A stretch of DNA of 64,000 nucleotides from Gammaproteobacteria bacterium (GTDB lineage: Bacteria > Pseudomonadota > Gammaproteobacteria > Steroidobacterales > Steroidobacteraceae): assembly GCA_027452045.1 (NCBI GenBank), contig DAIDHH010000031.1, forward strand, positions 1-64,000, written 5' to 3'. A program made the translations under genes and the position numbers. Position 1 is the first letter of the stretch, and the number at the start of each line of letters is the position of its first letter. The notes under the pieces are model-generated. The model searched no databases and was not told the origin of the DNA. It saw only the letters and a list, made by a program, of their open reading frames with translations. Positions 15,112-47,061 of this stretch are shown here, piece after piece.

Positions 15112-17619
15112 TCACTCCCGCTTCGACTGCGGCCGGGTGAGCGCCTCGTTCGGCACGAACCGTCCCCCGTGCGCGAGCGTGGCGAGGACCGCCTCGGAAC
15201 GCTCGAGCCAGGCGTCCTGCTTGTCCGGGGTGATGTTGTTGTGATCGGAGTCGATCAAGGGCACCGCCTCCTTCGGCCCCGGTATCTCGTTGAGTGCCGT
15301 CCAGATGCCCGCCGGCGGCGCCGTCGTATCGATGAATCCCATCGCGGCGAGGACCGCGGCGGTGATGTGCGGCGCAAAGTTCACGGGGTCGAAATAGCGC
15401 GCGGTCGCGAGCAGCTTCGCATCGGTCGTGTCGTAGTACGGGTACCCGGGATTGCGGCCGTGCGCCAGGCCATTCATGTCGGTGCCGGCGGGCTCATCGA
15501 CCAGCACGGCGGTCACCTTTCCGGGGTTGAGTCCCGCGGTGACGAGGCTCTGCTGACCGCCCATGCTGGTGCCGAGGAACACCACCGTCTTGCCGTCCCA
15601 AGCGGGGCTGCGGCGGATGTACTGCAGCGCCCGGGTGTCACGCAGGTACATGTCGAGGAAGTATGAGGTCCGGCGGCTGTGATCGCCGATCGCCTGATAG
15701 TCCTGCGGCACGCCGCTGCCCTCACTCGGGGCGATGTCGTGCGAGTCGACATCGAGGGTGAGCCAGCCCTGCGCGGCGCGATTGGTGGCCCAGGAGGTAT
15801 CGAGCGGATACACCCCCGCCCATTGATAGAGAATGAGCGCCGGGAACCTGCGGCCTTTGGCGGGCATCGCGAGGTAACCGCGTACGTGAGAGCCGACGCT
15901 GTCGAGTCTCACCCTGTAGAGCTTCACGCCCGGTTGCGCGGTTGGCATCGGCGTCAACACCGGGTCCATCGGCACCTTGCCGAGCCTCGCGAGCTGGCGT
16001 TTCCAGAAGGACCAGAAATCCGCAGGCGCAGGCTCCGCAGGCCTGAGCAATGTCGGCGCCACGGCGGCACCGAACGTTGCGACGCGCTGCGCATGGTAGT
16101 CAACCGCGACGTAGACCATCGCAGGCTCATCTAGCCGCGTCGTGATCCTCACCGGTCCCGAGGACAGCGTGAATCGGCCGGTCTTGCGGACATCGAGATC
16201 GTTGGTCTTGATCGTGTAGCGGAACGAACCCGCGGGCGGGCTCTGCCCCGGCGCGAGGCTCACCGTCCAGCCGACCTTCTGACCCAGAGCGTAAATGCCG
16301 TCGGCATGAAACGGAACGCCGGTGAGCTTCGGGGCGGCGGCCCGCGCGGCCGCTGCGCTCGGGGCGAAGAATGCGAGGGGAACGGCATCGGCCATCGCGC
16401 GATAGCCGGCCGGGTTCGGATGCAGGTGGTCGCCGGAATCGTACGCGGGGCGCAGGCGATGCGGGTCCGCCGGATCGCGCACGGCCGCATCGAAATCGGC
16501 CACCGCGTCGAAATGCCCCGGCGTGCGTATCCAGGCGTTGATCTTCTCGCGGTCGGCTTCCGTTGCGGCGGATGGGTGATAGTAGGTCGAGCCGGTGAAC
16601 GGGGTGATCGTCCCGCCCATCACGCGTATACCCTCGGCGTGCGCCCGGAGAATGATCTGTCGGTAGGCGCCGATGATGTGGCGCACGAGTGCCGCGTGCT
16701 GCGCGGGCGGGATCCTTCCGTGCATGGTCGCGGTGCCGAGATCGTTGACCCCTTCGAGCACGATGAGATAACGCACGCCGCTCTGCGCGAGCACATCGCC
16801 ATCGAAGCGCGCCAGCGCATCGGGACCGAGCCCGTAGCGCAGCAGCCGGTTGCCGCCGGTGCCCACATTGACCACGCCGAGGTCGCGGGTCGCCGGCGAG
16901 GACTGCAGGCGTCTCGCGAGGTCATCGGGCCAGCGGGTATCGCTGTTGTCGGGCGTGGCGTGTCCGTCGGTGATCGAATCCCCTAGCGCGACGATGGCCG
17001 CGCCCTGGCGGCGCTCGAGCACATCGACCCCGGAGAGAAAGAACCAGTGCGCAAATCGCCTGGCCCCGGGCAGGCGGGCGGCCGCGACATGATCACCGGG
17101 GGCGAGGAAGGAGGTCTCACGGGCACCGGGATGGCTGGTCTCACCCTCGGGCGGCGCCTGCAGATGCATCGTGATCGCCAGATTCGACAGCGGCGGCGCA
17201 TCGAAAGCGACGGGGTCCGAGTAATAGACCGCCCCCGCCGGAATGATGACGCCCCGACGGCCATTGAACGTGAGCACCGTGTTGGTCGCGGGGTCGATGG
17301 TGCCGCTCGCGAGCGAGACCGGGCGGGCGATCTCGACCGAGGTGATGTAGAGGGCGCGGGTGCCGAAGGCATTCGACAGGCGCACCCGCAGCCGCCTTGC
17401 GCCCAGGGACAGATGCACGATCTGACGGAGCGTCGCGTTGGCGAACTTCGCGGCCGGCAGCGCGTTCGCCGGCTCCGGAATCTGCTGAGAGGAGGCCCAC
17501 GTGCCCACCCAATGCGCCACGGGCGATCCCCGCGCGCGCACCCCGGACCCGGCCATGCCCGCCGCGCAGGCGAGTAACGCCCACGCCAACACCGTGCGGA
17601 TCGGCGGCCGGGCGCTCAT
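15112..17619 (-). CDS. Two-domain esterase: N-terminal SGNH/GDSL hydrolase plus C-terminal CE7-like acetylxylan esterase
   Basis: SGNH blocks GDSITDG, GTGGNRLL, LEGVNDLG, DHLHP; C-term FWSFWKRQL...FLGTSMGGQQSLVTAGL...IDTTAPPAG...DSDHNN; signal peptide; ATGA overlap with the preceding gene. Confidence 0.88.
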   Translation of the reverse strand: MSARPPIRTVLAWALLACAAGMAGSGVRARGSPVAHWVGTWASSQQIPEPANALPAAKFANATLRQIVHLSLGARRLRVRLSNAFGTRALYITSVEIARPVSLASGTIDPATNTVLTFNGRRGVIIPAGAVYYSDPVAFDAPPLSNLAITMHLQAPPEGETSHPGARETSFLAPGDHVAAARLPGARRFAHWFFLSGVDVLERRQGAAIVALGDSITDGHATPDNSDTRWPDDLARRLQSSPATRDLGVVNVGTGGNRLLRYGLGPDALARFDGDVLAQSGVRYLIVLEGVNDLGTATMHGRIPPAQHAALVRHIIGAYRQIILRAHAEGIRVMGGTITPFTGSTYYHPSAATEADREKINAWIRTPGHFDAVADFDAAVRDPADPHRLRPAYDSGDHLHPNPAGYRAMADAVPLAFFAPSAAAARAAAPKLTGVPFHADGIYALGQKVGWTVSLAPGQSPPAGSFRYTIKTNDLDVRKTGRFTLSSGPVRITTRLDEPAMVYVAVDYHAQRVATFGAAVAPTLLRPAEPAPADFWSFWKRQLARLGKVPMDPVLTPMPTAQPGVKLYRVRLDSVGSHVRGYLAMPAKGRRFPALILYQWAGVYPLDTSWATNRAAQGWLTLDVDSHDIAPSEGSGVPQDYQAIGDHSRRTSYFLDMYLRDTRALQYIRRSPAWDGKTVVFLGTSMGGQQSLVTAGLNPGKVTAVLVDEPAGTDMNGLAHGRNPGYPYYDTTDAKLLATARYFDPVNFAPHITAAVLAAMGFIDTTAPPAGIWTALNEIPGPKEAVPLIDSDHNNITPDKQDAWLERSEAVLATLAHGGRFVPNEALTRPQSKRE

Positions 17620-19520
17620 GGCCGCTCCCGCAAGGCCACGAGACTATGCGGCTCCACCCGCAGCTCGTAGCCGTACTGCCGCGGCGCGGCTCTTGCGCCC
17701 CCGCCGGGGGGCGACCCGACCGAGGCCAGCGGCTCACCCTCGAGGACCGTGCCGCTCGAGAGGTCCTCGAGATGGGCCGACCCGTCGATGAGGCGGACCG
17801 CGACGGGCTGGTCGAGGTAGGACTCCACCACCCGAGCGCCATTGGCGTAGTCGAAGAGGCTCACCTGCGCGGGCCCCTCGAGCCTCGGCAGGCCCGGCGT
17901 GAGCAAGCGGCGCAGCGCATCGAGCACCGGCGGCGGGAGTGAGGCGAGATCGTTCTGCTCCTCCGGCACATCGAGCACGTACAGCTCGCCTTTCCCGTAA
18001 TGATCCATCAGGAGCAGCGGCACGCCGCCCGCATCGTCCAGACCTCTCAGCACGGCCCAATCCTCGTTCGTGTAGAAATGGATCAAGGGAAAGAGGATCG
18101 GCCGGCTCTTGCCGAGCACCGTGCCGGCGCCAAAGCCGAATCCCTCCACGTAACGGGTGGGAGCCACGATGCGGTGCGTGAGGCGCATATCGGTGACTCG
18201 ATCGAAGCCGCGGTGTTGCAGCACACGCAACAGGCCCGAGGTGATGATCACGCGATCGCCGGCGCGCAGATGCGACTCGATTTCCGTCACGATCCGCGGA
18301 TCGTGCGCCGCCGCTTGCGTGAGGAGCACCGAGTGGGCGTTCGGCCACCGCGGATACATCTCGACCGGAATGCCGATCATGCCGAGCATCTCGGGCAGGA
18401 AGTCCTCGCCGCTCGAATCGAGCGGCCGATACACCGCAAGCCCGCGAGGCTCCCCGAGGCCTCCTGCGATCCGATCGACCTGACGGAGCGAGTACGCTAC
18501 CGCATCGGCGAGGCGGGGATGGCGGGCCGCGGGAGCCCCGGGCGTTGCGCAGCACTCCAGCACCATGCGCCGGTAGTTGAATGTGGTGGGCAGGTGCTGC
18601 CAGGGGGCGCGGTTCTTCGGATCGGCGATCCTCAAGAGGTCGGTGTACTCGAACAGGTTGATCGCGGGCGCCTTGGCGAGAATCGTGTCCCAGAGCTGCT
18701 CGGCGTAGCGGTCGAGATCGTGCATGGCGATCGGGTCCACCCAGCCGCCGCCGTTGCGCCCGGGCGCGATGTTCTCGAAATACCTGAAGATCTCGTAACT
18801 CTCGTACGGCAGCAGTTCCTGATCGGTGGTGGGCGCATAGCGCGTCTCATCGCCCGTCCAGATCTCGGGAAAGATCTTCGGCTCATGCACGAGATCGAAC
18901 CCCATGCCCTGGAACGAGGGGTAGAAGTTCGGGAACTTGATGATGATGCGAACCTTGGGGTTGGCGGCCCTGGCGGGGCCGAGGATCAGATCCCGCGAGA
19001 CCTCGTCCATCGTTCGCATGCGATACTCGGCCCAGCTGCGCCCGCCCTTGGCCGCGATGTCCGCATCGCTCTTGGTATTGAAGAAATAAAGATCATCGAG
19101 CACGAACTCATTGAAGTGACGCGCCGTGAGCGCCGACATGCGCCGCGCGAGCGCGCGGTCGGCCGGCAACGCGTAATCGAGGGTGTTGAACTGCCCGCCG
19201 CGGCCCGGACCGAGCATGGCCATGCCCCCGGCCACCGCGACGCCGCGCGACTCGAAGAAATGCTTGACGCGATCGAGCTGCGCGCCATCGGCGCTCACTC
19301 CGGCGCGGTAGCTCTCGATGAACACCTGGTCGACGTGCAGTGCCGAGCCGATCTCCTTCCAGCTCGAGCGCATCCAGGCCGGATCGCGCGCCATGCGCTT
19401 CACCACCCGCACGGGTATGTAGACCGTGACCTTGAAGTTCTGGTAGGACCGCGGCGCGGTCCAGCCCGTGGCGCTCACCAGCAACAGAGCGAGCGCTCCC
19501 AGCCAATGTCCAGCTTTCAA
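17616..19520 (-). CDS. Uncharacterised putative secreted glycoside hydrolase (TIM-barrel-like plus C-terminal domains); paralog of 45130-47061
   Basis: Shares VYIPV, HFNEFVLDDLYFFNTKSDADIAAKG, WTGDETR, GGWVDP, LILFPLIHFYTNEDW...VPLLLM...GELYVLDVP with 45130-47061; TTG 19520 start with GGGGG SD, downstream of the operator. Confidence 0.75.
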   Translation of the reverse strand: MKAGHWLGALALLLVSATGWTAPRSYQNFKVTVYIPVRVVKRMARDPAWMRSSWKEIGSALHVDQVFIESYRAGVSADGAQLDRVKHFFESRGVAVAGGMAMLGPGRGGQFNTLDYALPADRALARRMSALTARHFNEFVLDDLYFFNTKSDADIAAKGGRSWAEYRMRTMDEVSRDLILGPARAANPKVRIIIKFPNFYPSFQGMGFDLVHEPKIFPEIWTGDETRYAPTTDQELLPYESYEIFRYFENIAPGRNGGGWVDPIAMHDLDRYAEQLWDTILAKAPAINLFEYTDLLRIADPKNRAPWQHLPTTFNYRRMVLECCATPGAPAARHPRLADAVAYSLRQVDRIAGGLGEPRGLAVYRPLDSSGEDFLPEMLGMIGIPVEMYPRWPNAHSVLLTQAAAHDPRIVTEIESHLRAGDRVIITSGLLRVLQHRGFDRVTDMRLTHRIVAPTRYVEGFGFGAGTVLGKSRPILFPLIHFYTNEDWAVLRGLDDAGGVPLLLMDHYGKGELYVLDVPEEQNDLASLPPPVLDALRRLLTPGLPRLEGPAQVSLFDYANGARVVESYLDQPVAVRLIDGSAHLEDLSSGTVLEGEPLASVGSPPGGGARAAPRQYGYELRVEPHSLVALRERP

Positions 19521-19587
19521 CCTGGCCCCCTTCTGCACGATCGGCCGCGATGGCGCCTGGAGCCGGAGCGCAGCCCGTGATTTTTCA

Positions 19588-19601
19588 TGATAGCGCTCAC
19601 A
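19588..19601. promoter_or_regulatory. xyl-box-like operator TGATAGCGCTCACA
   Basis: Upstream of 17616-19520; one arm imperfect. Confidence 0.65.
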
Positions 19602-19675
19602 TTCCGGCTTGGCAATTTCGAATCGAGCCAAGCGCTACGCAGCGATGGCCCTATACCGGCCGACTGATTTGGTTA

Positions 19676-19689
19676 TGATATCGGTATCA
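19676..19689. promoter_or_regulatory. xyl-box-like operator TGATATCGGTATCA
   Basis: Perfect 5-bp arms; upstream of GH3 (19718). Confidence 0.75.
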
Positions 19690-19717
19690 CATGACATCGA
19701 CGGCAAGGGGGGAGATC

Positions 19718-22084
19718 GTGTCGCTTTTCCGCATATCACGCATGGGCGCGCCCTGCGCGCTCGCCTTGGCCGCGCTCCTCGCTCCGGGGCTCGCCCCTCG
19801 CGCCGCGAGCGCCACCACACAGCCGCTCTACAAGAACCCGAACGCCCCGATCGACGCCCGTGTCGATGACCTGCTCGCAAGGATGACCCTCGAGGAGAAG
19901 ATCGCCCAGATCAGCGGCATCTGGCAGCGCAAGCCCGGGATCGAGGATGCGCGCGGGAACTTCGACCCCGCCAAGGCGGCGCGACTCTTTCCCGAAGGCA
20001 TCGGGCAGGTGGCCCGTCCGGAGGACATCAACGGCCAGCCCGGCGGGTTCCGCAGCCTTCGCCGCACCGTCGAACTGGTCAATGCCATTCAGCGCTACGA
20101 CATCAAAGACACCCGTCTCGGGATTCCCGCGCTGTTTCACAGCGAGGGGCTGCATGGCTACATGGCCGTGGGTGCCACCAGCTTTCCGCAGGCGATCGCA
20201 CTGGCAAGCTCATGGGATCCATCGCTGGTCAGTCGCGTATTTGCCGTCGTTGCCCGCGAGGCGCGGGCTCGGGGAGTGCAATTGCTGCTCACGCCAGTCA
20301 TCAACCTCGGGCGCGACCCTCGATGGGGGCGCATCGAGGAGACCTTCGGGGAGGACCCCTATCTGGTCAGCCGGATGGGGGTCGCCGAGGTGCGAGGCCT
20401 GCAGGGAAACACGCTTCCCCTCGGTCCCGGGCGGGTGTTCGCGACTCTCAAGCACTTCGCCGGATACGGTGTCCCGGAGGCGGGCACGAACGTCGGGCCT
20501 GCCGAGATCACGCGCCGTACCTTGCGCCAGATGTACTTCGAGCCCTACCAGGCGGCCATCGACCATGCGCACGCCCAGATCGTCATGGCCTCCTACAACG
20601 AGATCGGCGGGATCCCCTCGCATGCCAATCGCTGGCTGCTCACCGACGTGCTGCGCAAGGAGTGGGGCTTCAAGGGGCTGGTGGTGAGCGACTACGACGG
20701 CATCGAGCAACTGATGACGCTGCACCACGTCGTCGCCAACCTGACCGATGCCGCGGTTCGCTCGCTCCACGCCGGGGTCGATGTCGACTACCCCGACGGC
20801 GAGGCGTTCTCCCACCTTCCCCAGGCGCTCGCCGCCGGCAAGGTGACGATGCCGCAGATCGACTCGGCGGTGCGGGGCGTACTGCGCCTGAAGTTCGAGG
20901 CGGGCCTGTTCGATCATCCGTATGTGAGCGCCCGCTACGCCGAGAAGATCACCGCTGACGCACAGGCGCGCGCACTCGCGCTCGAGGCGGCGCAGAACGC
21001 CATCGTGCTGCTGAAGAACGACGGCACCCTGCCCCTGGACGTGCAGCGCATCAAGACCCTGGCGGTCATCGGCCCCAATGCGAGGCCGGTGCGGCTCGGA
21101 GGGTACTCCGGCATCCCGACTGATCCGGTCGGCATCCTCGAGGGCATCCGCCGTTATGTCGGCAAGCGCGTGCGCGTCGTCTATGCCAAGGGCGTGCACC
21201 TGGTTGCCCCTGGCGACAACTACTATACCGACCACGTTTCGCTCGCCCCGGCGGCGGAAAATCGCGCCCTCATCCAACAGGCGACACGCGTGGCCCGGCA
21301 CGCGGATGCGATCGTGCTCGTTCTCGGCACGCGTGGCGCACTGTGCCGCGAGGGATGGGCGCAGACGCATCTCGGCGACCGCGACAGCCTGAGGCTCGTC
21401 GCGCAGCAGAATGAGCTCGCGCGCGCGATCTTCGCCCTCGGCAAGCCCGTGGTCACCGTGCTGATCAACGGGTGTCCGGTCACCGTCAATCGCATCCTCG
21501 GCCGGACCAACGCCCTGATCGAGGGCTGGTACCTCGGTCAGGAAGGCGGCACGGCGATGGCGGACGTTCTATTCGGCAAGACCGATCCGGGCGGCAAGCT
21601 CCCGCTCACCATCCCGCGCTCGGTGGGCCAGGTGCCCTACAACTACGACGAGAAGCCAAGCTCGCATCGCGGCTACCTGTTTGCCCGCAACAGCCCGCTG
21701 TTCCCCTTCGGCTACGGGCTCTCCTACACCACCTTCGATATCGGCCGGCCGGTGCTCTCGGCGAGCCGTATCCCGGCTCACGGCACGCAGACCGTGACGG
21801 TGAACGTGCGCAATACGGGCAAGGTCGCCGGGAGCGAGGTCGTGCAGCTCTACCTGCACGAGCGGGTCACTTCGGTGACCGAGGCGGTGAAGGCGCTGAA
21901 GGGCTTCAAGCGAGTGTGGCTGGCCCCCGGGGCCTCGACGCGGGTGACCTTCAAGCTCGGCTGGAAGGACTTCGCGATCTGGAACGAGGACATGCGCCAC
22001 GTGGTCGAGCCGGGCACCTTCCGCGTGATGGTCGGACCGGACTCGGTGAGCCTGAAGTCCGCGACCTTCCAGGTCACATCCTGA
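19718..22084 (+). CDS. GH3 beta-xylosidase/beta-glucosidase with FnIII-like C-terminal domain, secreted
   Basis: YKNPNAPIDARVDDLLARMTLEEKIAQISG, LKHFAGYGVPEAGTN, LVVSDYDGI, FPFGYGLSYTTF, VTVNVRNTGKVAGSEVVQLYL; GTG 19718 with GGGGGG SD. Confidence 0.93.
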   Translation: MSLFRISRMGAPCALALAALLAPGLAPRAASATTQPLYKNPNAPIDARVDDLLARMTLEEKIAQISGIWQRKPGIEDARGNFDPAKAARLFPEGIGQVARPEDINGQPGGFRSLRRTVELVNAIQRYDIKDTRLGIPALFHSEGLHGYMAVGATSFPQAIALASSWDPSLVSRVFAVVAREARARGVQLLLTPVINLGRDPRWGRIEETFGEDPYLVSRMGVAEVRGLQGNTLPLGPGRVFATLKHFAGYGVPEAGTNVGPAEITRRTLRQMYFEPYQAAIDHAHAQIVMASYNEIGGIPSHANRWLLTDVLRKEWGFKGLVVSDYDGIEQLMTLHHVVANLTDAAVRSLHAGVDVDYPDGEAFSHLPQALAAGKVTMPQIDSAVRGVLRLKFEAGLFDHPYVSARYAEKITADAQARALALEAAQNAIVLLKNDGTLPLDVQRIKTLAVIGPNARPVRLGGYSGIPTDPVGILEGIRRYVGKRVRVVYAKGVHLVAPGDNYYTDHVSLAPAAENRALIQQATRVARHADAIVLVLGTRGALCREGWAQTHLGDRDSLRLVAQQNELARAIFALGKPVVTVLINGCPVTVNRILGRTNALIEGWYLGQEGGTAMADVLFGKTDPGGKLPLTIPRSVGQVPYNYDEKPSSHRGYLFARNSPLFPFGYGLSYTTFDIGRPVLSASRIPAHGTQTVTVNVRNTGKVAGSEVVQLYLHERVTSVTEAVKALKGFKRVWLAPGASTRVTFKLGWKDFAIWNEDMRHVVEPGTFRVMVGPDSVSLKSATFQVTS

Positions 22085-22108
22085 ATCGGGATACGCCGTC
22101 GGCGGGCG

Positions 22109-22993: not shown

Positions 22994-23360
22994 ACGTGAA
23001 GCTCCCATCCCCGCCACCACGCCCAGCGGTACGCCGGCATCCATCCTCGCACGAACACCACGCAATGGCGATCCGGGGCCCGACAGGGGTGGACGGATCA
23101 GTGCGGTTCGCAGTCGCGACGCGCGCCCGACCTGACAGACTGCAACTCCCTCGATAGGCTGCCATCGATGATTGCAGTGCGTAGCGCATCATACAGCCGG
23201 CGCAGCAGCGTCGCCCCCTGGGCCGCGGCCCCAGCTCCGGCGCAACATCGGTTTGCGTTCGGGTGGCGGCGCAAACCTGGCGCCCGAGGGCTGTGCCGGC
23301 CTTTCCGCCGGCCGAGCGGGGCTCGCCGTCCGCCGAGAGATGATCGGGCCCCTCACACGC

Positions 23361-28629: not shown

Positions 28630-30177
28630 TCAGACAGGCTGCAAGCCGTGCTCGCGGATGCTTTGCAACAGCTCGCGATTCTTCGGCAGCCGGGCGAGCA
28701 TCTGTTGCGTGACCTGATCCTTCTCCCGCAGCAGCCGCGATGCGAGGGGCGCGCTCTGGGCGGTGTCCTCGAGGCTGACCTCGGTGCGAAACCCCATGCC
28801 ATAGAGCACGTACTGGTAACTCGCCGCCGGAAAGACCTCCTCCAGGCGATCGAACTCGTCGAAGAACCACGGTGACTGGTATTGCCACAGGGTCAGAAGC
28901 TCCTGCAGCCGCTGTGGAACGGTCGCCGGATCGACGTTATCGCGCCAGAACGCCGTGTCGGTGCGCCGCGTGAGCACGTAGTGGAGCTTCAGGAAATCGA
29001 CGATCCGTCCCCAGCGGTAGTGGGTCACCTCGTTGAAGCGCCGGGCGATCAGATCCATCACCTCGCGACACGCGGGCATCTGCTCCGCCAGCAGCTTAGC
29101 TGAGAGCTCCACCAGGACGATCGCCGAGGACTCGAGCGGCTCGAGAAAGCCGGCGGCGAGTCCGACGGCGACGCAGTTGCCCTTCCAGAAGGTCTGGCGA
29201 TGGCCCGAACGGATCGGGATCTTGCGCACAGGCAGTTCCTTGTGCCGCTCGCCGACGTAACGCGCGAGCGTCTCGCGGGCCGCCTCCTCGCTCGAGTGGC
29301 GACTCGAGTACACGTAACCGATGCCGCGCCGCGAAGGCAGCGCGATATCCCAGATCCACCCCGCCTCCTGAGCGGTCGAGAGGGTCTGAGAGGCCATCGG
29401 GGCATCGGATGTGTCATAGGGAACCTGCGTCGCGAGGGCCGTGTCGCAAAATAGAATGTCGCTCAGGTCCTTGAAGCCCACCCCGAGGGTCTCACCGAGC
29501 AGCAGCGCCGAGAAGCCGCTGCAATCGATGAAGAGGTCTCCCGAGAGTTCCCCGGCCTGGGCGGTGCGCAGGCTGGTGATGTCGCCGTTCTCGCCTTGAT
29601 TCACCGCGATCACATCCGCCAGGACGTGGCGGACCCCGAGCCTTGCCGCGCAGTGCCGGGCGAGGAACGGGGCGAATTTACCCGCATCGAGGTGATAGGC
29701 ATAGTTCGCGAGCCCGCGGTACTCGGCGTTGACGATGGTCTTGGGCGCCAGGCCCTCATCGCACAGCTGGCCCTGCGGGGTGACGAAGTCGCAGAAGCTC
29801 CTCCCGCCGCGCTCCTTGAGCCAATGCGGCACGAGATTGAGCACCGAGAAGCCCTGGGGGGCCATCAGCGGGTGGTAGTAGGCGTCATCGGGCTCACCGG
29901 TCGTCCACCCGGCGAACCGGCCTCCCTGCTTGAACGCGGCGTCACACTGCCGGAACAGCTCCGTCTCCGACACCCCCATCTTTTCCAAAGACGAGCGCAT
30001 CGTCGGCCACGTCCCCTCCCCGACGCCGATGATCCGGATGTCCGGAGACTCGACCAGCGTCACGGAGAAGCCGCCCGCCTTCATCCGAGCTTGATGGCGG
30101 GCGGCGATGATCCCCGCGGTGAGCCATCCGGCGGTTCCTCCGCCGACGATGACCACCGCCTTTACGGGCTGATTCAC
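28630..30177 (-). CDS. Tryptophan halogenase family flavoprotein (WxWxIP motif degenerate)
   Basis: VIVGGGTAGWLTAGIIA FAD motif; AGWIWDIALPSRRGIGYVYSS; GLAAGFLEPLESSAI. Confidence 0.9.
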   Translation of the reverse strand: MNQPVKAVVIVGGGTAGWLTAGIIAARHQARMKAGGFSVTLVESPDIRIIGVGEGTWPTMRSSLEKMGVSETELFRQCDAAFKQGGRFAGWTTGEPDDAYYHPLMAPQGFSVLNLVPHWLKERGGRSFCDFVTPQGQLCDEGLAPKTIVNAEYRGLANYAYHLDAGKFAPFLARHCAARLGVRHVLADVIAVNQGENGDITSLRTAQAGELSGDLFIDCSGFSALLLGETLGVGFKDLSDILFCDTALATQVPYDTSDAPMASQTLSTAQEAGWIWDIALPSRRGIGYVYSSRHSSEEAARETLARYVGERHKELPVRKIPIRSGHRQTFWKGNCVAVGLAAGFLEPLESSAIVLVELSAKLLAEQMPACREVMDLIARRFNEVTHYRWGRIVDFLKLHYVLTRRTDTAFWRDNVDPATVPQRLQELLTLWQYQSPWFFDEFDRLEEVFPAASYQYVLYGMGFRTEVSLEDTAQSAPLASRLLREKDQVTQQMLARLPKNRELLQSIREHGLQPV

Positions 30178-34066: not shown

Positions 34067-34102
34067 ACGATTATTCCATGCCTGAGGCGGAGGTGACCCC
34101 GT

Positions 34103-36189: not shown

Positions 36190-38430
36190 TCAGTGCACCG
36201 CAGGCTCGCCGTAGAGGATGCCTCGGCCGTCGGTCCCGACGTACACGCGTCCGAATACTCGTGGATCACCGGCGATGCAGCGGAACCGCTGGCCATAGAC
36301 GTGCCTCGCATCATTGATGCGCCGCCAGGTGCGGCCGCGGTCCTCCGATCGCCAGACCGCGTACATGCGCGCCACTCGCCCGAGCGCATAGAGCGTCGGA
36401 TAGCGGTGAGCGGGTGCGGCCATTCCGAAGCCGAGCGCGCTCACCCGCACTCTGCTGCTCACACGCGCGAATGTTCGCCCACCGTTTGCGGAGTGAAACA
36501 GTCCCTGATGGGACACCAGCCACAGGTCCCCTCGCCTGCCCGGCGTTGCGATGAGCGGCCACTGGCGCTCGGGTGAGTGCGGCTGATCCGCCTCGAGGTC
36601 CGCCGGCAGACCGCGGGTCGCACGGGTATGAAACGTGGCGCCGCCGTCGCTGCTGACGAACAGCTGCGCGCGTTCGAAATCCAGCGCGTAAAAAGTCTGC
36701 GCGAGCACGCGGTCTGCGAGGGGATGCGCGCCGGCCGGCAATCCGATTGCCGGCCGCCACGTTCGCCCCCGATCGCGCGTCACCTCCGGCAGTCGCGACA
36801 TCGCGATGAACGAACGGCCGTCGGCCGAGACGACGATCGCGGAGGCCGGTGCGGGAGGCCGCAGGGGCCGCCACGAACGGCCATAGTCGAGCGAGTACGC
36901 GAGCGTCGGCGCGCCCGGCGCGGAGCGCGGAGCGCGCGTGCCGCCGCGTACCACGATGTTCGGCGACAGCGCCGCGTCATCTATGGTGTCCGTATTGGCA
37001 AACACCGGATGGGTAAACTGCTCCGTCGGGGATCGCCTCAGGCGCTCGTGGACGAAGCCGCTCAGGTCCCCGAAGCCGCTGAGCAGGTGCGGGCCCTTCG
37101 GAGGACTCACGAGTGTCAGCACCGCCGTCTGCTCGACTCCCCGGACCCACGGCTTCCAGAGCAGCGCCCGTCCGGGAGCGCGGCTCAGCAGATCGTGCGT
37201 GGCGTACACGGTCGCCCCGGTGCTGTAGGCGGCGTGCTCGGGGTCAAAGGGATCGATGGCGACACCGGTGATCCACCAGCCGAAATCCGCCTGGGCGTGG
37301 CCCCACAAGAGAAACGGGGTCGCGGAGACGTCCCGGCGGCTGCGCGCGCGCAGGTTGCGCCAGGTTCGCCCGCCATCGGTCGAGCGCCACAGGACATCCC
37401 CCGGATGCCAGCGGTCGACAGACGCCACGAGAAGCGTTCCGGGGCGGCCCGCATCGACCGCAAGTCCCATGTAACCTCCCGACACGCGCAAGCCGTCCGC
37501 CCCGGGTGTGATATTGGTCCACCGTCCAGTCTGTGTGTCAAAGCGGTATACGGCGCCCTCGGTGATGCCGTTGGGTCCGGTCCCGTTGCTGTAGGTCACG
37601 TAGAGGGTGCCATGGGCATCGAGCCCGGCCTGCACCGGCAGCAGGTCGGGCGCCGGCTGTCCGGGAACGGCGTTCCAGGTTCTGCCGGCATCCTCGCTGT
37701 AGAAGAGGTGCTGCGCGCCAGGCAGAGTCAACCCGACGTAGATGCGCCGTGACGGGCCTGAAGGGCGGCCCCCCTGCGGGTCGATGACCACGAAGCTGAT
37801 ACCGGTCTGCATCCGGGGCGAGTCGCGCCAGCCGGTGCCACGCCAGGCAAAGGAGTCCATCCGGCTCCAGGTCCGCCCCCCATCGAGACTGCGCTGCAGC
37901 CCATCGTATCGCGTGCCGAAATACAGAATGGAGCGGTCATTGGGATCGATCGCAAGCCGCTCGCCGACACCGCGCCCAGGCATGTTGCCGCCCATGCGAA
38001 AGGGTGTCGGGAATATTTGCCAGGTGTTGCCGCGGTCGTGGGAGCGAAAGATGGCCGCGGGCTGGTTCGGATACATGCCAGCGGCGAGATAGACGACTTC
38101 TGGATCCACCGGGTCCGCAGCGATACTCTCGATCCCGAAGTAGCTCGACTGGGCGATGCCATCCTCGAGGGGTATCCATTCGTGCCGCGAGGCGCTCCAC
38201 CGGTAAGCCCCGCCCATGTCGGTGCGCAAATAGGCCAGTCCGCGCTCGGCCGGGCTGAAGACGATAGCGGGTGCGAAACCGCCGCCACCCACGGCCACAT
38301 TGCGCCAGACATAGCGCACCGCGTGCCGCGTCGGCGCCGAAGCCGACGCTGGAGCCGCGATGCCCAGCCCGAGGATGGCGGCCGCAAGCGTGAACGCCGA
38401 GACGCCGTGACTCCACCGCCGCACGCTCAC
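36190..38430 (-). CDS. GH74 xyloglucanase, secreted
   Basis: WRNVAVGGGGFAPAIVFSPAERGLAYLRTDMGGAYRW and repeated beta-propeller SxDGGRTW motifs. Confidence 0.92.
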   Translation of the reverse strand: MSVRRWSHGVSAFTLAAAILGLGIAAPASASAPTRHAVRYVWRNVAVGGGGFAPAIVFSPAERGLAYLRTDMGGAYRWSASRHEWIPLEDGIAQSSYFGIESIAADPVDPEVVYLAAGMYPNQPAAIFRSHDRGNTWQIFPTPFRMGGNMPGRGVGERLAIDPNDRSILYFGTRYDGLQRSLDGGRTWSRMDSFAWRGTGWRDSPRMQTGISFVVIDPQGGRPSGPSRRIYVGLTLPGAQHLFYSEDAGRTWNAVPGQPAPDLLPVQAGLDAHGTLYVTYSNGTGPNGITEGAVYRFDTQTGRWTNITPGADGLRVSGGYMGLAVDAGRPGTLLVASVDRWHPGDVLWRSTDGGRTWRNLRARSRRDVSATPFLLWGHAQADFGWWITGVAIDPFDPEHAAYSTGATVYATHDLLSRAPGRALLWKPWVRGVEQTAVLTLVSPPKGPHLLSGFGDLSGFVHERLRRSPTEQFTHPVFANTDTIDDAALSPNIVVRGGTRAPRSAPGAPTLAYSLDYGRSWRPLRPPAPASAIVVSADGRSFIAMSRLPEVTRDRGRTWRPAIGLPAGAHPLADRVLAQTFYALDFERAQLFVSSDGGATFHTRATRGLPADLEADQPHSPERQWPLIATPGRRGDLWLVSHQGLFHSANGGRTFARVSSRVRVSALGFGMAAPAHRYPTLYALGRVARMYAVWRSEDRGRTWRRINDARHVYGQRFRCIAGDPRVFGRVYVGTDGRGILYGEPAVH

Positions 38431-38446
38431 CTCGCCCTCGCGGCCA

Positions 38447-39322: not shown

Positions 39323-41766
39323 TGCTTCCTCGAAGATCGGATGGGGCCATCGATCACCTGCACCAAAGCGCTGTCCGGCACCGACCATGCCGCCGCGCCG
39401 GTATGCGAGAAGTGCCGTGTCCTGTCGTTCCAATGCAGCACCGTGACCTTGCCGCCCGTCTTCCCGTGACGGTACGTCGCGCCATCGTCGCGATACAGAT
39501 CAAAGGTGGCATCCGCTCCCGCATAGATGCGGATTCGTTTCAACCCCTGGTGCTGGTCCATGTCCTCCACCGGGGTGCCGAGAGGCAAGATGGAGCCCGC
39601 GCGGACGAACAACGGAATGACGCTGATGGGCGCGCGCGCGAGGATCCACTGCCCGCCGCGATACTTGCGGTTCGTCCAGTAATCGTACCAGTCGGCTCCC
39701 GCCGGCAGATACACCTTGCGCCGGGTCTGCCCCTGGCGCGTCACGGGGGCCACCAGAAAATCCGGCCCGAACATGTACTCGTTCGTGAGCGCATCCACCT
39801 TCGGATCGTTCGGAAAGTCCATGAACAGGGCCCGCATGTAGGGCGCGCCGGTCTCGTAGGTGTGATGGGCGAGGGAATAGATATAGGGAATGAGCGCATA
39901 CCGCAGGCGCAGATATTTCTCGAGGATGGGAGTCGCCTGCCTTCCGTAGGACCACACCGTGTTGAAACGGCGCATGCCATGCGTGCGCAGAATCGGCATG
40001 AACACGCCGTATACGAACCAGCGCACGTACAGCTCAGGATAATCGGCATCGCCCCCGACGTTGCTGCGCGCACCCGCCGCGCTGATCAGCGGCGCGTGTG
40101 CGGGATGATGCACGGCGGGCAGGCTCCAGAACCCGCCCACATCATCGGTCCAGTACGGCAGTCCCGAGGCCGTCACATCGAGCCCGGCCGGGACCTGGCG
40201 CCGCAGCGTGTCCCAGGTGGGCGAGATGTCCGAGGACCAGAAGATCGTCGCGTTGCGCTGCGCGCCGGTGAAGGCCGCGCGGGCGAGGATCATCGGCCGC
40301 TCCTTCAAGTCGCGGCGCATGCCGCGATACACGGCGGAGGTCTCGAAAAGGGGATAGACGTTGAAGTCTTGCGTCCCTGGGCCGATGTGATAGTAGCTGC
40401 CATTCGGTGGGATGTCCGGCTCCGTCTCGTCCGTCCAGATGGCATCGAAACCCTTGCTGATGAGATGCCGGTCGATCCTCCGCCAGAACCAGCGCGCCGC
40501 GGCAGGGTTGGTCATGTCGAGGTTCGAGCCCGTCTGGTTTCCCGGCAACTCGTTGGTCGTCGTCGGCTGGCCGTCGGCGAGGTGATACAGCCATCCCTTC
40601 TTCAGCAGCATGCTGTAATAGCGCGACCCGGGGGCGAAGCGCGGCCACACGCTGATCATGGTGTGAAATCCCATCCGATGCAGCGCCGCATTCATCTTGG
40701 CAGGGTCCGGCCAGTCCTTCGGCACGAAATCGAACTGCCCCATCTTCGGGTAGTAGAAGAAGTCGACGACCAGGTAATCGCACGGCAGGTGGCGCTTGCG
40801 ATAACCGCGCGCCACCGCCATGACCTGCGCCTGGGTGGCGTAGCGCTCCTTCGACTGGATGAACCCGTAGGCGCCCTTCGGCAGGAGCGGCGCGGGCCCG
40901 GTGAGCAGGCGATACCCCTGGTACAGGGCATCGGTGCTCTTGCCGGCGATCAGGAAGAACGAGACCCGCTGCCCGACCTGCGAGACCCATGTCGTGCGGT
41001 CGTTGAAATGCGGCTCGACGGTGGTCTTTGAGGGATTGTCCCAGAGCACCGCGTAGTGCCGGTTGGTGACCAGGAACGGCACGCAGAAGCGTTCCCCGCC
41101 TCCCGCCCAGTAATTGCTCCAGCACCGCACGGTCTGGTCACGATGATCGAGGCGGCCCTGCTGATTCTCACCGAGCCCGTAATAGTGCTCGCCGGGGGAG
41201 GCGCTGAAGGTCGCGCCCACCCGGTAGAAAGGTGGGTCCGCGGGACGTCGGTCCTGAAGAATCTCCGTATCCCCCGCACCGTAGCTCGGACGATCCATGG
41301 ACCACTGCTCGAGACTCACGAGCTTCTGGCCATCGGCCAGGCGGAACCGGAGCCGCACATTCGCGTAATGGACCGAACCGTCGGAGCCGAAGAACGCCCC
41401 GATCGACCGCTGTCCCGAGAGATTCGGGCTGTGATGCCTCGGCGCGCCGAGAATCGTGACGGCGAGTGCCGCGGAGCGATACGTCTCTCCATTGGCCGAG
41501 CGCTGCAGGCGCCAGCCCGCGCCATCCGGTCGAGCGATGACCCCGTAGCCCGGGGGAGCGAGCGCATAGGACTTCAGCCGGCTGATGCTCACGCGAATGA
41601 TGTTCGGCGCATATGGTTCGAGCATGAGCGTGGTGAGTCCCTTGGTCATCACCACCCGGCCGTTGTGCACCGCGAGAGTCTGCGGCCCGGGACCCCGCGA
41701 ACCTTGCCCCGCGTGCGCCACGCACGGCAGGAGACCGAGCGCGCCAATCAGGATGTGTTTCACCAT
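39319..41766 (-). CDS. GH31 family alpha-glycosidase (probable alpha-xylosidase), secreted
   Basis: YYGLGENQQGRLDHRDQTVRCW; LVVDFFYYPKMGQFDF; nucleophile region IWTDETEPD; start at ATG 41766 (MVKHILIGALG). Confidence 0.92.
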   Translation of the reverse strand: MVKHILIGALGLLPCVAHAGQGSRGPGPQTLAVHNGRVVMTKGLTTLMLEPYAPNIIRVSISRLKSYALAPPGYGVIARPDGAGWRLQRSANGETYRSAALAVTILGAPRHHSPNLSGQRSIGAFFGSDGSVHYANVRLRFRLADGQKLVSLEQWSMDRPSYGAGDTEILQDRRPADPPFYRVGATFSASPGEHYYGLGENQQGRLDHRDQTVRCWSNYWAGGGERFCVPFLVTNRHYAVLWDNPSKTTVEPHFNDRTTWVSQVGQRVSFFLIAGKSTDALYQGYRLLTGPAPLLPKGAYGFIQSKERYATQAQVMAVARGYRKRHLPCDYLVVDFFYYPKMGQFDFVPKDWPDPAKMNAALHRMGFHTMISVWPRFAPGSRYYSMLLKKGWLYHLADGQPTTTNELPGNQTGSNLDMTNPAAARWFWRRIDRHLISKGFDAIWTDETEPDIPPNGSYYHIGPGTQDFNVYPLFETSAVYRGMRRDLKERPMILARAAFTGAQRNATIFWSSDISPTWDTLRRQVPAGLDVTASGLPYWTDDVGGFWSLPAVHHPAHAPLISAAGARSNVGGDADYPELYVRWFVYGVFMPILRTHGMRRFNTVWSYGRQATPILEKYLRLRYALIPYIYSLAHHTYETGAPYMRALFMDFPNDPKVDALTNEYMFGPDFLVAPVTRQGQTRRKVYLPAGADWYDYWTNRKYRGGQWILARAPISVIPLFVRAGSILPLGTPVEDMDQHQGLKRIRIYAGADATFDLYRDDGATYRHGKTGGKVTVLHWNDRTRHFSHTGAAAWSVPDSALVQVIDGPIRSSRKQ

Positions 41767-41818
41767 TGCACGAATTCTCCAAATCACAGGTGAGGACGCG
41801 GTGAACGGCCACCCTCGC

Positions 41819-43651
41819 TCACGAGGCGAGCTCGATGCGCAGCGCCGCCGCATAGTCCGCGGCCGGCGTGACCTGCGGCAGCTCGATGCGCAAGCCCTCG
41901 GGCCTCTGCCGCCAATGCGGCCGCGCCTCGCTCCCGAGCAGCTCGACCCGCCGCACTCGGCCGGGCACGGTCGAGGCGGCAGTGCCGAGGGAGCGGATGA
42001 GCATGACCTCGCTCGGCCAGCCGAGCGCGATCGCGTAGAGCACCGTCCCCGCCTTGTTGCGGGTGAAGCGGATGTCCTGGGCGGAGAGCTTTCCAACGCT
42101 CTTGCCTTGTAAAGAGCCCGCGCGGATGACGCTCGGGCCCTCGCCATACACCTTCCAGGGCCGTGTCGCGTAGATCGCCTCGCCGTTCACCGCGAGCCAG
42201 GTGCCGATCCTTTCCAGGATCAGCCGCTCCTTGCTGTCGATCGTGCCGTCGGGCTTGCCCGGGATGTTGAGAATGAACGTGCCGTTCTTGCTCACCGTGT
42301 CGATGAGCCAGTGAAGCGCCTCGCGCGGATGCATGTAGCCGCCGAACTCACCCGGCTGCTCGTAGAGCGTGCGCAGGTAGTGCCAGTTGCCGATGCAGGT
42401 TTCCGACTGCCAGGGATGAGGCTCGATGTCCCCGCTCAAGCCCCGCTCGATGTCGGCTACGACCGACTTCTGCAGCCGCTGCGGCACCTTCTTCACCGTG
42501 ATGACGCCGTCCACCTTGCCTGCGTGCCGGGCGAGACTGCGATTGTAGAAATACGCCCCGAGGCACATGCCTCCCCAGCCGAGAGGCAGCAACGGGTTAT
42601 CGAAATACAGCAGATCCGGATCGTGCTGATCGATGAGATCGCGCGTGCGGTCGTAGAAGTTCTTCACGTAGGAGCCATCGGGCAGCGCATCGAATGGATG
42701 CTTCGGTCCGTATAGCTGCTGCGGATCATAGCCTTCCCACCACTGACCCTTGCCCTCGGCAAGCGTCAGACGGCCGTCATAGGGCACACCGGCATAGGGG
42801 CCGGTCTTGTCGGCGCCATGCGCCGCCTGAAACCACCACCAGTTGCGGGCCTGGTGCACCGTGACACCGAATCGAAGTCCCTTGCCGCGCGCCGCCTTCG
42901 TCCAGGTGCCGATCACATCCCGGTGCGGGCCGATGTTCCGGGCGTTCCACGGATGATGCTTCGAATTCCAGGTGTCGAAGCCATCATGATGGTTGGCCAG
43001 CGCCAGGAAGAGCTTGGCCCCCGCGCGCACGTACAGGTCCATCAGCGCCTCGGGCTGCCAGTTGAGGAGCGTCCATTGCGGGCAGAGATCCTTGTAGCCG
43101 AAGCGTGAGGGATGGCCGTAGTGCGCGAGCTGATAGTCGTATTGCTCGATCTGACCGCTGTAGGCCGGCGCCCCCTGGACGTACATGTTGCGCCCATACC
43201 AGTCACCGTCCTCGGGAACACACTGCGGGCTCCAGTGGTTCCAGATGCCGAACTTCGCGTCCCGGTACCACTCCGGGCACTCGTACTGCAGCAGCGAATC
43301 CCAGCTCGGCTCGTAGGGTCCCGTGCCGGCCAGATGCGGCACGGGCGGCTCCATCGGCACCCCGTCCCAGGACCCGCCCGGCACCGGCAACGCCGGCGGA
43401 TAGCCCCATTCCGTCGGGCGCCAGGTGGCCTCGTTCAGCCGCTGCGGAACGATCGTCTTGCCGCGCAGTGCGTAAAAGACGCGCGCTCGCTCGGGCGTGG
43501 CGCAGAAGCGGGCGTAGGTCTGCTCAAGCCGATCGAAGGCCGGTGGCATGCCCGAAACCTCGGTCTCGGCGAATGCCTGGCGCGCCGCGCCCGGCAGCGC
43601 GGCGGCCGCCGCCGTGCCCGCCATCAACTTGAACAGGCTTCTTCGTCTCAT
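41819..43651 (-). CDS. GH29 alpha-L-fucosidase, secreted
   Basis: WYRDAKFGIWNHWSPQCVPEDGDWYGRNMY; AKLFLALANHHDGFDTWNSKHHPWNARNIGPHRDVIGTW; LLYFDNPLLPLG. Confidence 0.92.
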   Translation of the reverse strand: MRRRSLFKLMAGTAAAAALPGAARQAFAETEVSGMPPAFDRLEQTYARFCATPERARVFYALRGKTIVPQRLNEATWRPTEWGYPPALPVPGGSWDGVPMEPPVPHLAGTGPYEPSWDSLLQYECPEWYRDAKFGIWNHWSPQCVPEDGDWYGRNMYVQGAPAYSGQIEQYDYQLAHYGHPSRFGYKDLCPQWTLLNWQPEALMDLYVRAGAKLFLALANHHDGFDTWNSKHHPWNARNIGPHRDVIGTWTKAARGKGLRFGVTVHQARNWWWFQAAHGADKTGPYAGVPYDGRLTLAEGKGQWWEGYDPQQLYGPKHPFDALPDGSYVKNFYDRTRDLIDQHDPDLLYFDNPLLPLGWGGMCLGAYFYNRSLARHAGKVDGVITVKKVPQRLQKSVVADIERGLSGDIEPHPWQSETCIGNWHYLRTLYEQPGEFGGYMHPREALHWLIDTVSKNGTFILNIPGKPDGTIDSKERLILERIGTWLAVNGEAIYATRPWKVYGEGPSVIRAGSLQGKSVGKLSAQDIRFTRNKAGTVLYAIALGWPSEVMLIRSLGTAASTVPGRVRRVELLGSEARPHWRQRPEGLRIELPQVTPAADYAAALRIELAS

Positions 43652-43678
43652 CGATGCGGCGCTCCCGGGAAATCCGTG

Positions 43679-45103
43679 CTAAGGGTGTTTGAATCCGGAC
43701 ACTCCGTTTGGGCCGATGTCCACGCGATAGAGCGCCGAGCCATGCGCATCCAGCCGGATATGCAAGGTCGTTGGCGCACCGAGACGCCGGTGTGTCCACA
43801 GATCCCGCACCGAGTAGCGCGAACCGGGCAACGAGACATCTTTCCAGCTCACCGCCAGCGTCCGCGGATGCGGCGCGAGGTTGAACGCCGCGAGATACCA
43901 CCCGCCGCCCCGTGCCGGACGCGAAGTCCAGACGATGAAGCCATTGCGGGAGTAAACCTGCCGGGCGTCCTCGGCATGCTGATCGACGGCGATGACCTCA
44001 GGATTATCGAGCAGCGATAGAGTCCAAGCGTTCATGCGGGTGAGATTGCCGCCAAGCATCAGCGGAGAGCGGGCAATGCACCAAAGGGTCATGTAGGTGC
44101 GCTGCTCGGCGTGCGTCAAGCGGCTCCAGCGCGGCGATCCCCACCCAGGGGCGGGCGCGAGATCCCCGATCGCCAGCATGTCGGCATCCGGCCAGTGCCC
44201 TGGACGCGCCAGGGGCGCCCAGCGGGCCAGACGGGCAAACTGGTCGCCGACGCCTTGCGGATAGGGCTTGGTGCTGTGCCAGAGATCCCACACGTCGTTG
44301 GAGATCCGCCACAAGTTCGCGTTACGACGCAGTTGGCTGAGCTTGGCGAGCGGAGCGGGCCCCGGCGAGAGACTGAGCACCATCGGCCGCCCGCTGGCGC
44401 GCAACGCATTGGAAAGCATGCGGATTTCCGCGCCCGCGTAGGGATGGCTCGCGATGCAATCCGCCTTGATGTAATCCAGATGCCAGGCAGCGTAGAGGCG
44501 CGCGATGGAGTCGTAATACGCCTGACCCGCGGGACTTGCGCGCACCCCATCGTTGTCGGGATTCCAGGGACAGGGGGCATTGCGAGCCGCGGCCTCGGCG
44601 GCGCGGAAGGCGGAGCCGGCGATTGGCGAGTTCTCCCGCACCGCCTGCCGCGGGATGCCGCGCAGGATGTGGATCCCGAACTTCAACCCCAGTGAATGTA
44701 CGTAATGCGCAAGGGGCGCGAACCCCGCGCCATGAGCGGCAGAGGGAAATCGGTTGGGCGCGGGCACATAGCGACCGAACCGATCCAGGGTGAGGACATC
44801 CCCGGGCGAGCCCCCCGAGGGCGTGGGATTGCGCACGAACCATCCCTCGTCGATCACCGCATAACGCCATCCGTAGCGGCGCAGGTGCTGGCTCATCCAC
44901 AGCACATTGGCGCGGAACTGCTTCTCGGTGATCGTGGTGCCGTAGGCGTCGTAGCTGTTCCACCCCATGGGAGGGGTGGCTGCGAGCACGGCCGTGGATG
45001 AAGCAGCCCTCCCCATGACCGGTATTGCCGCCAGCACCCCGGCAGCCGTTGCCGCGACCCATCGCAGATGCCTCGAGCGAAGCGATACGCATTGCATCTT
45101 CAT
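43679..45103 (-). CDS. GH27 family glycosidase (alpha-galactosidase-like), secreted
   Basis: LAATPPMGWNSYDAYGTTITEKQFRAN; YAVIDEGWF; LDYIKADCIA; MTLWCIARSPLMLGGNL. Confidence 0.93.
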   Translation of the reverse strand: MKMQCVSLRSRHLRWVAATAAGVLAAIPVMGRAASSTAVLAATPPMGWNSYDAYGTTITEKQFRANVLWMSQHLRRYGWRYAVIDEGWFVRNPTPSGGSPGDVLTLDRFGRYVPAPNRFPSAAHGAGFAPLAHYVHSLGLKFGIHILRGIPRQAVRENSPIAGSAFRAAEAAARNAPCPWNPDNDGVRASPAGQAYYDSIARLYAAWHLDYIKADCIASHPYAGAEIRMLSNALRASGRPMVLSLSPGPAPLAKLSQLRRNANLWRISNDVWDLWHSTKPYPQGVGDQFARLARWAPLARPGHWPDADMLAIGDLAPAPGWGSPRWSRLTHAEQRTYMTLWCIARSPLMLGGNLTRMNAWTLSLLDNPEVIAVDQHAEDARQVYSRNGFIVWTSRPARGGGWYLAAFNLAPHPRTLAVSWKDVSLPGSRYSVRDLWTHRRLGAPTTLHIRLDAHGSALYRVDIGPNGVSGFKHP

Positions 45104-45129
45104 TTCAGAGTTCTCCCGCCTAGTGCGCT

Positions 45130-47061
45130 TCAATGCACCGCGAACACGCGATAGGAGTGCGGCGCGAGCCGCACCACGAAGCTCGTTTCCCCGAGATCAC
45201 CTGGCGTGGGACTCGGCGTGATCTCAGGCGCTTGCGAAACGGTCTCTCCGGAGACCAGGTCATCGAGTCCGCGGCCCCTGCCGGGCACGAAGATCCGCAC
45301 CGTCGTGGGACTTGCCCGGTAGGACTCGATGATGAAGGTGTGATTGTCATACGCGAACAGGCTCACGTGCGCCGGGGCGTTGATGCGCACCGGGAAATGG
45401 TCCAGCACGAATCCCCTGATGGCGTTCAGCACCGGCTCGGGAAGCTCGTAGAGATCGCCCATGTTGGAGGGAACATTGAGCACGAACAGCTCGCCCCGCG
45501 CAAAGCCGGTCATGAGCAGGATCGGCACCCCATGGTCTGCGGCCTCGCCGCGGATCACCGGCCAGGTGTCGTTGGTGTAGAAGCGGATCCCGGGAAAGAT
45601 CACCCGCGGCGCCCTCTCGCCTGGCACGTTCAGCCTCTCGCCCGTGCCCGCGCCGAAACTGCCGAAGTAGCGCCGCACCGCCATCGGCCGGCCCGTGTAG
45701 GTGATTTCCGCGATGTTGCGAAAGCCCTTGTGCGCGCGCTCGAGTGTGTGCAGCAGGCCCGAGGTGATGATGACCTCACCACCCGCATCGAGCCGCGATT
45801 CGATTTCCTGCACCAGGTGTAGGTCGTATGAAGCCTCCGCCGTGAGCAGGACGACCGGCGCGTTGGCCGGGAAATGCGGCGAGAGCTCGATCGGGATGCC
45901 GATGTTCCCGAGATAGTTCTGCAGGAAGTCCTCGCCGCTCGACTGGAAGGGTTTGTAGCTGGCGATCCCGATGGGCTGGCCCAGCTTGCCGAGGAAGCGA
46001 TCGACCTGACCCAGGGAATAGCCCGCGACGCTCGCCCAGCCCGGCACCGCCTCGGGTGTGTCCGCCGGAGCCTTGAAGGCATGCAGCATCGCATTCCAGT
46101 CGAAGCTCGTCCGATCGCTCGCCCAGGCGGAGCGGTCTCCGGCCACGGCGGGCTCGGGCGCTGCCATGGCTCCCCAGCTGAACAACGTGATCTCCGGCGC
46201 CTTGGCGAACAACGTGTCCCACAGCTCCTCGGCGTAGCGGTCGGCATAGCGGATGCTGAAGGTGTCCACCCAGCCGCCGAGGTCCGCGCCCGGACGGATG
46301 TTGCTGTAGTAGCGGTAGATGAGATAGCTCTCGTACTGTTGCAGGTTCTGGTCGGTATCTGTCGGATCACGGGTCTCGGTGCCCGTGTAGATGTAGTCGA
46401 ACGCCTTGGCTTCCCGGTCGAGGTCGTAGCCGAGGCCCTGGAAATGCTCGTACCAGTTGGGGTACTTGATGATCATCTTCACCCGCGGGTTGACCTTGCG
46501 CGCGGTTGCGAGCACCAGGTGCTCGGCCACCCAGCGCATCTTGCGCAACCGGTATTGCGTCCAGCTGAGCGCCCCCTTGGCACGGATGTCGGCCGGAGTG
46601 CGGGTGTTGTAGAAGAAAAAATCATCCAGGATGATCGTATTGAAGTGCCGCGCCGCCATCCTGACGGCCCGTTCACATTCGGCCACGTTCTGCGGGTTCT
46701 CGTAATCGAAGGTGCCGAACTGTCCCGCGCGGCCGCCTTTGGCGAGCGTGATTCCCCCATCGACGGTGATGCCGCGGTGCCGGAAGAAGCGCTTGATGCG
46801 CTCGAGCGAGCCCGGGTCGGCGAATACGCCGCCTCGATAGACCTCGAGGTACACCTTGTCGAAGTGGACCTGGCTCCACACCCGCTCGAACTGACGCCGC
46901 AGCGTCGCCGGGTCGGCGAGCTGGCGGGTCGCGTACACCGGGATGTAGATCGCCACGCTGAAGTTGCGATACGGCCGCTGCGCGGGCGCCGTGGCGGAAC
47001 TCGCCACGGACGCCCCGAAGCCCAGGATCAGGCAAGTGAAGGCGAGGAGCCTGCGCATCAC
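45130..47061 (-). CDS. Uncharacterised putative secreted glycoside hydrolase; paralog of 17616-19520
   Basis: YRNFSVAIYIPV, HFNTIILDDFFFYNTRTPADIRAKGALSW, YTGTETR, GGWVDT, VIFPGIRFYTNDTWPVIRG; ATGA overlap with GH31-PA14. Confidence 0.75.
   Translation of the reverse strand: MMRRLLAFTCLILGFGASVASSATAPAQRPYRNFSVAIYIPVYATRQLADPATLRRQFERVWSQVHFDKVYLEVYRGGVFADPGSLERIKRFFRHRGITVDGGITLAKGGRAGQFGTFDYENPQNVAECERAVRMAARHFNTIILDDFFFYNTRTPADIRAKGALSWTQYRLRKMRWVAEHLVLATARKVNPRVKMIIKYPNWYEHFQGLGYDLDREAKAFDYIYTGTETRDPTDTDQNLQQYESYLIYRYYSNIRPGADLGGWVDTFSIRYADRYAEELWDTLFAKAPEITLFSWGAMAAPEPAVAGDRSAWASDRTSFDWNAMLHAFKAPADTPEAVPGWASVAGYSLGQVDRFLGKLGQPIGIASYKPFQSSGEDFLQNYLGNIGIPIELSPHFPANAPVVLLTAEASYDLHLVQEIESRLDAGGEVIITSGLLHTLERAHKGFRNIAEITYTGRPMAVRRYFGSFGAGTGERLNVPGERAPRVIFPGIRFYTNDTWPVIRGEAADHGVPILLMTGFARGELFVLNVPSNMGDLYELPEPVLNAIRGFVLDHFPVRINAPAHVSLFAYDNHTFIIESYRASPTTVRIFVPGRGRGLDDLVSGETVSQAPEITPSPTPGDLGETSFVVRLAPHSYRVFAVH

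Follow-up and report, generated by a model that had tools for sequence, protein, structure and literature searches.

The described proteins closest to those analyzed here are the GH164 beta-mannosidase Bs164 (6t5o) and the GH42 beta-galactosidases (5e9a and 3tts), which have three domains of similar size arranged in the same order. In GH164, catalysis relies on Glu160 of strand 4 and Glu297 of strand 7 (PMC7105311). The GHL10 protein Cwp19 of Clostridium difficile (5oq3), for which a glycoside hydrolase activity was reported, carries Asp195-Asp196 near the end of strand 4 and a glycine where other enzymes have the strand 7 acid (PMC5765458), and the functional region solved for this protein consists of one barrel. 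A catalytic Asp followed by a Glu is found in the GH114/GH191 enzymes (PMC12054363), and the endo-alpha-galactosaminidases of GH114, GH191, GH135, and GH166 possibly share this kind of pair, with the Glu further along, with the family described below. Additionally, Op5Man5, a GH5 exo-mannosidase of the Opitutaceae with a Glu156/Glu281 catalytic pair, is an independent case of another barrel joined to a GH42-type trimerisation domain. Both xyloglucan and glucuronoxylan rank among the major polymers of plants, and the inventory of systems that degrade them is regarded as good. A clear gap in this inventory is marked by a conserved, predicted secreted protein that recurs in Pseudomonadota, Verrucomicrobiota, and Myxococcota, three phyla in all, beside GH74, GH31, GH35, or GH43 genes.

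Two genes for such proteins, P1 and P2, were found in the window analyzed in this study, a stretch of 64,000 nucleotides from a gammaproteobacterium of the family Steroidobacteraceae. Both open reading frames were present at the position and strand given in an earlier note on this DNA (Table 1). They were homologous over their full length (BLASTP, 498 bits, E = 4e-174, 285/632 identities or 45%), and all motif blocks previously listed as shared by the two were recovered in this alignment. The loci differed in gene content. According to Pfam, the P1 locus encodes a GH67 protein, a ManD-type dehydratase, an MFS transporter, a GDSL-AXE1 esterase, P1, and a GH3 protein, while the glycosidase part of the P2 locus encodes a BNR-repeat protein (taken as GH74), GH31, GH29, and GH27 proteins, P2, a GH31-PA14 protein, and a GH35-type protein. 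The neighbors were as named earlier, with Pfam giving GH31 with PA14, GH27, GH29, GH31, ManD-type enolase, MFS, and GDSL with AXE1. In line with the reported coupling, both copies showed 4-base overlaps, between the end of the GH31-PA14 gene (47058) and the start of P2 (47061), and between the end of P1 (17616) and the start of the esterase gene (17619). A further 4-base overlap, read from the coordinates, joins the end of P2 (45130) to the start of the GH27 gene (45133).

The P2 locus also includes tryptophan-halogenase-like proteins and a TonB-dependent receptor. In the window, such halogenase-like proteins adjoin TonB-dependent receptors at 28630-30177(-), 51691-53247(-), and 53208-54710(-), where the first matched PF04820 and the other two were assigned by their look-alike sequence. 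Similar genes were carried by Sphingomonas loci, one of them with a cupin-like protein. Two open reading frames, 58050-60584(-) and 60593-61693(-), were considered as conserved neighbors and rejected, as neither matched a family and both looked like antisense shadow frames.

Table 1. Coordinates of P1, P2, their neighbors, and the predicted domains, residues, and palindromes in the window.
Feature	Coordinates	Strand	Basis or remark
P1, family member, subfamily confined to the genus of the window; predicted secreted TIM-barrel protein	17616..19520	-	45% identity to P2, invariant residues, tree
P2, family member, 643 aa; predicted secreted three-domain protein	45130..47061	-	AlphaFold2, Foldseek to GH42/GH164
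P2 residues 31-358, (beta/alpha)8 barrel, putative catalytic domain	45988..46971	-	Separate model, pLDDT 88.3
P2 residues 359-553, trimerisation/amidotransferase-like domain, approximate boundary	45403..45987	-	Secondary structure of model, GH42/GH164 alignment
P2 residues 554-643, C-terminal beta-sandwich, approximate boundary	45133..45402	-	Secondary structure of model, Foldseek
Glu73 codon, strand 2 end	46843..46845	-	Invariant
Asp146-Asp147 codons, strand 4 end (ILDD motif), candidate catalytic Asp	46621..46626	-	37/37 members and distant relatives
Glu229 codon (TGxETR), strand 6 end, candidate acid/base	46375..46377	-	Invariant
Asp266 codon (GGWVD), strand 7 end	46264..46266	-	Invariant
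GH67 alpha-glucuronidase	9475..12048	+	Pfam
ManD-type enolase-superfamily dehydratase	12480..13823	-	Pfam MR_MLE; ManD name inferred
MFS (ExuT-like) transporter	13813..15084	-	Pfam MFS_1; ExuT name inferred
GDSL and AXE1 double esterase	15112..17619	-	Pfam; 4-base overlap with P1
BNR-repeat protein, taken as GH74-type xyloglucanase	36190..38430	-	Pfam BNR repeats; GH74 inferred from length, repeats, context
GH29-type alpha-L-fucosidase	41819..43651	-	Pfam
GH27 (alpha-galactosidase-like)	43679..45133	-	Pfam; 4-base overlap with P2
GH31 with PA14 insert	47058..50063	-	Pfam; 4-base overlap with P2
GH35-type protein with DUF5597 domain	49982..51637	-	Pfam
Operator-like palindrome upstream of P1 and GH3	19588..19601		TGATAGCGCTATCA with 2 mismatches
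Operator-like palindrome, head of P2 operon	51637..51650		TGATAGCGCTATCA with 3 mismatches

Neither P1 nor P2 had a match in Pfam or NCBIfam, nor did any of the 37 sequences in an alignment of the family match Pfam meaningfully. Specifically, the GH42 models PF02449, PF08532, and PF08533 matched none of the 37 members at E<=1, while PF02638 (GHL10/Cwp19) and PF03537 (the GH114/GH191 group) were unmatched in the Pfam scan of the alignment members. Among PDB sequences, no credible chain was retrieved with a single sequence and none at E<=10 with the 37-member profile. The earlier failure to place the two proteins in a known GH family was thus repeated in all libraries searched (Pfam, NCBIfam, and PDB sequences). 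A profile-profile comparison with proteins that contain a GH42-type trimerisation domain was not significant (hhalign probability 3.7%), and the relation to GH42 is thus visible in structure only. Searches for GHL6 and GHL10 proteins (150 genomes each) did not return enough relatives to compare profiles, and a search of a plasmid collection returned nothing.

The family was found in 278 related stretches among GTDB representatives, including Proteobacteria, Acidobacteria, Verrucomicrobia, and others, and the best 80 of these were retrieved. Named isolates that carry it included Massilia, Sphingomonas, Caulobacter, and Nitrospirillum. Profile searches of two other phyla (about 195 genomes each) identified the family in about 2-5% of the genomes, together with a few very distant relatives. 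Most of the members inspected by eye had N-termini that resemble signal peptides. In a tree built by a quick method, in which long branches were flagged and the exact joining point is unsure, the P1 clade was confined to the genus of the window and joined sequences of Acidobacteria, while P2 fell into a gammaproteobacterial clade. The description of P1 and P2 as paralogs is to be corrected in that they are not recent ones. A recent duplication was rejected, since the tree placed them in old, deep, and separate subfamilies.

An AlphaFold2 model of P2, built from the 37-row alignment, reached a pLDDT of 88.8 and a pTM of 0.89. Compared with the PDB by Foldseek, it gave full-length matches to GH42 and GH164 structures with E of about 1e-18, TM of about 0.6, and 10-12% identity, among them GH42 5e9a (E 4e-19) and GH164 6t5o (E 5e-19, TM 0.60) at 10-11% identity. 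The GH42 architecture of barrel, trimerisation domain, and beta-sandwich was present in the model, as was the three-domain fold of GH164 (6t5o), in support of the same layout guessed earlier for these proteins (a TIM barrel, an amidotransferase-like/trimerisation part, and a beta-sandwich). When the P2 barrel was modeled alone, Cwp19 (GHL10) became the first match (TM 0.59, 11% identity), followed by GH164, GH20, and GH35.

Residues invariant in all 37 members included E73, R76, D146, D147, R171, K199, Y204, E229, R231, and D266 (P2 numbering), and they stayed invariant after a barrel-only relative (24-30% identity) and two divergent Verrucomicrobia proteins were added. In the P2 model, E73, D146/D147, E229, and D266 lie on strands 2, 4, 6, and 7, respectively, each at the C-terminal end. 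The conservation previously noticed for the acids of the LDD and TGxETR motifs was therefore complete in the alignment, and the model sets them at the C-terminal ends of barrel strands. The family signatures, namely Asp-Asp on strand 4, Glu-Thr-Arg on strand 6, Trp-x-Asp on strand 7, and Glu on strand 2, were held even in very distant relatives. Among the latter was a barrel-only protein of 386 aa (L151, 1237-2397(-)) with the same invariant acids and a Cys-x2-Cys after strand 4; its gene adjoins an open reading frame that by eye resembles a GH78-type rhamnosidase.

The catalytic Glu residues of GH42 on strands 4 and 7 were not kept, the invariant acids there being Asp146-Asp147 and Asp266, and equivalents of Glu160 and Glu297 of GH164 were absent from the family alignment. 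While Bs164 and the GH42 enzymes share the architecture, the family has no profile match to them, and it carries an additional Glu on strand 6. Cwp19 has the Asp-Asp near the end of strand 4 in common with the family, but not the acid on strand 7. The GH114, GH191, GH135, and GH166 enzymes act on another substrate and were absent from the top 50 fold matches of the P2 barrel. The features tested thus place the family outside GH42, GH164, and GHL10.

Gene context outside the window, where 20 neighboring proteins were scanned with Pfam, linked homologs to glycosidase genes in unrelated bacteria. Predicted operons in Verrucomicrobia read GH31, GH2, GH74, and the family gene in one case and GH3, GH74, and the family gene in another, while in two other members of this phylum the family gene stood between GH31 and GH39 genes. 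Predicted operons also linked the family gene to GH74 in Massilia, to GH3, GH35, and GH31 in Sphingomonas, and to GH43 in a myxobacterium. Eight sampled genomes had a single GH74-type gene, and in five of them it lay no more than 15 kb from the family gene (simple binomial, about 2e-9, which ignores shared ancestry); three of these loci were known to have GH74 nearby before the genomes were chosen. Within the genus of the window, GH67 was present in 16 of 17 genomes with the family and in 6 of 20 without it (p = 1e-4), and GH74 in 6 of the 17 and none of the 20 (p = 0.005), although variable MAG completeness may inflate both differences. The usual operon in this genus was ExuT, ManD, and the family gene. 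Accordingly, the division into a xyloglucan copy and a xylan copy held in the genome of the window but not as a rule, since the P2-type gene occurred with ExuT, ManD, and GH67 in most sister genomes. In this genus, the P2 gene appears to have moved between operons, as it lies in a xyloglucan-type operon in the window and with ExuT and ManD in most sisters (L031-L046). Many homologs, for example in Caulobacter, Nitrospirillum, and several Acidobacteria, were solitary among housekeeping genes, and the evidence from context is therefore partial. In a genome of the Limisphaerales, a family member adjoins a protein of 952 aa that had no Pfam match at E<=1e-5 (L094, 12070-14925(+)).

From the observed homology, fold matches, invariant residues, and gene context, we infer that P1 and P2 are probably secreted glycoside hydrolases of a GH42/GH164-like architecture, which belong to a family without a profile in the libraries searched and act on hemicellulose oligosaccharides. 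The TIM barrel would hold the active site, with a trimerisation-type domain and a small beta-sandwich completing each protein, and both would probably act outside the cytoplasm as trimers. Their substrates may be short oligosaccharides, from xyloglucan at one locus and (glucurono)xylan at the other. In the putative catalytic center, the invariant Asp147 of strand 4 would be paired with either Glu229 of strand 6 or Asp266 of strand 7, and Glu73, Arg76, Lys199, and Arg231 would line the pocket. If the pair is an Asp on strand 4 and a Glu on strand 6, the analogy to GH114/GH191 would suggest, as a guess, a retaining enzyme for alpha-linkages. The conserved basic residues and the ExuT and ManD neighbors would, equally as a guess, suit a side chain that bears a uronic acid. 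Side chains, for instance of arabinofuranose or uronic acid, may be conjectured as targets common to both contexts. It speaks against the main explanation that the window already encodes GH27, GH29, GH31, GH35, and GH67 proteins for the obvious side chains. A further-reaching proposal, which we hold tentatively and with somewhat less than even confidence, is a new GH family, possibly with a clan of its own, that combines a GH42-type trimeric scaffold and an Asp-Asp/Glu/Asp site for the predicted removal of a hemicellulose side chain, possibly alpha-linked uronic acid or arabinose, that is not covered by present enzyme inventories.

One sub-case of the main explanation, with a different catalytic pair and stereochemistry, would be a retaining beta-glycosidase of clan GH-A type whose two catalytic Glu residues have turned into Asp (D147 on strand 4 and D266 on strand 7). 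The top full-length fold matches belong to clan GH-A and carry their catalytic residues on strands 4 and 7, and a weak, non-significant profile alignment matches the Asn-Glu pair of GH42-type proteins with D146-D147. However, clan GH-A enzymes have Glu at both catalytic places, and the invariant Glu229 of strand 6 would be left unexplained, so that this reading appears somewhat unlikely. A different concern bears on novelty and not on mechanism, as the family could already be in CAZy, or in the course of description, and merely be missing from the copy of Pfam, NCBIfam, and PDB searched. It is large and easily found, and some recent GH families lack a Pfam model. With no Pfam or NCBIfam match in the members scanned, no PDB relative by profile, and no matching family in the open-access literature, where text searches are blind to sequence, we regard this as unlikely. 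Both readings are compatible with a hydrolase, and the confidences placed in them therefore overlap with that in the main explanation.

A catalytically dead GH-like scaffold, which would bind hemicellulose oligosaccharides as a binding, sensing, or spacer protein, would account for the loss of the GH42/GH164 catalytic Glu pair, and GH-like domains with proposed non-enzymatic roles occur in PULs (DUF1735). Several acids and basic residues at the C-terminal face of the barrel are nevertheless strictly conserved across phyla and up to very distant relatives, which is typical of catalysis and makes this scaffold quite improbable.

The proposal of a common operator for both operons was consistent with an operator-like palindrome ahead of each, and the excess of this motif was real at the level of the window. 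With up to three mismatches, TGATAGCGCTATCA occurred 11 times, compared to 1.55 expected, and none of 100 shuffles reached 11. The occurrences lie at 3850, 5105, 9707, 19588, 19676, 33495, 33709, 51637, 52566, 58008, and 59127. A LacI-type regulator encoded at 3911-5119 is a possible owner of these palindromes.
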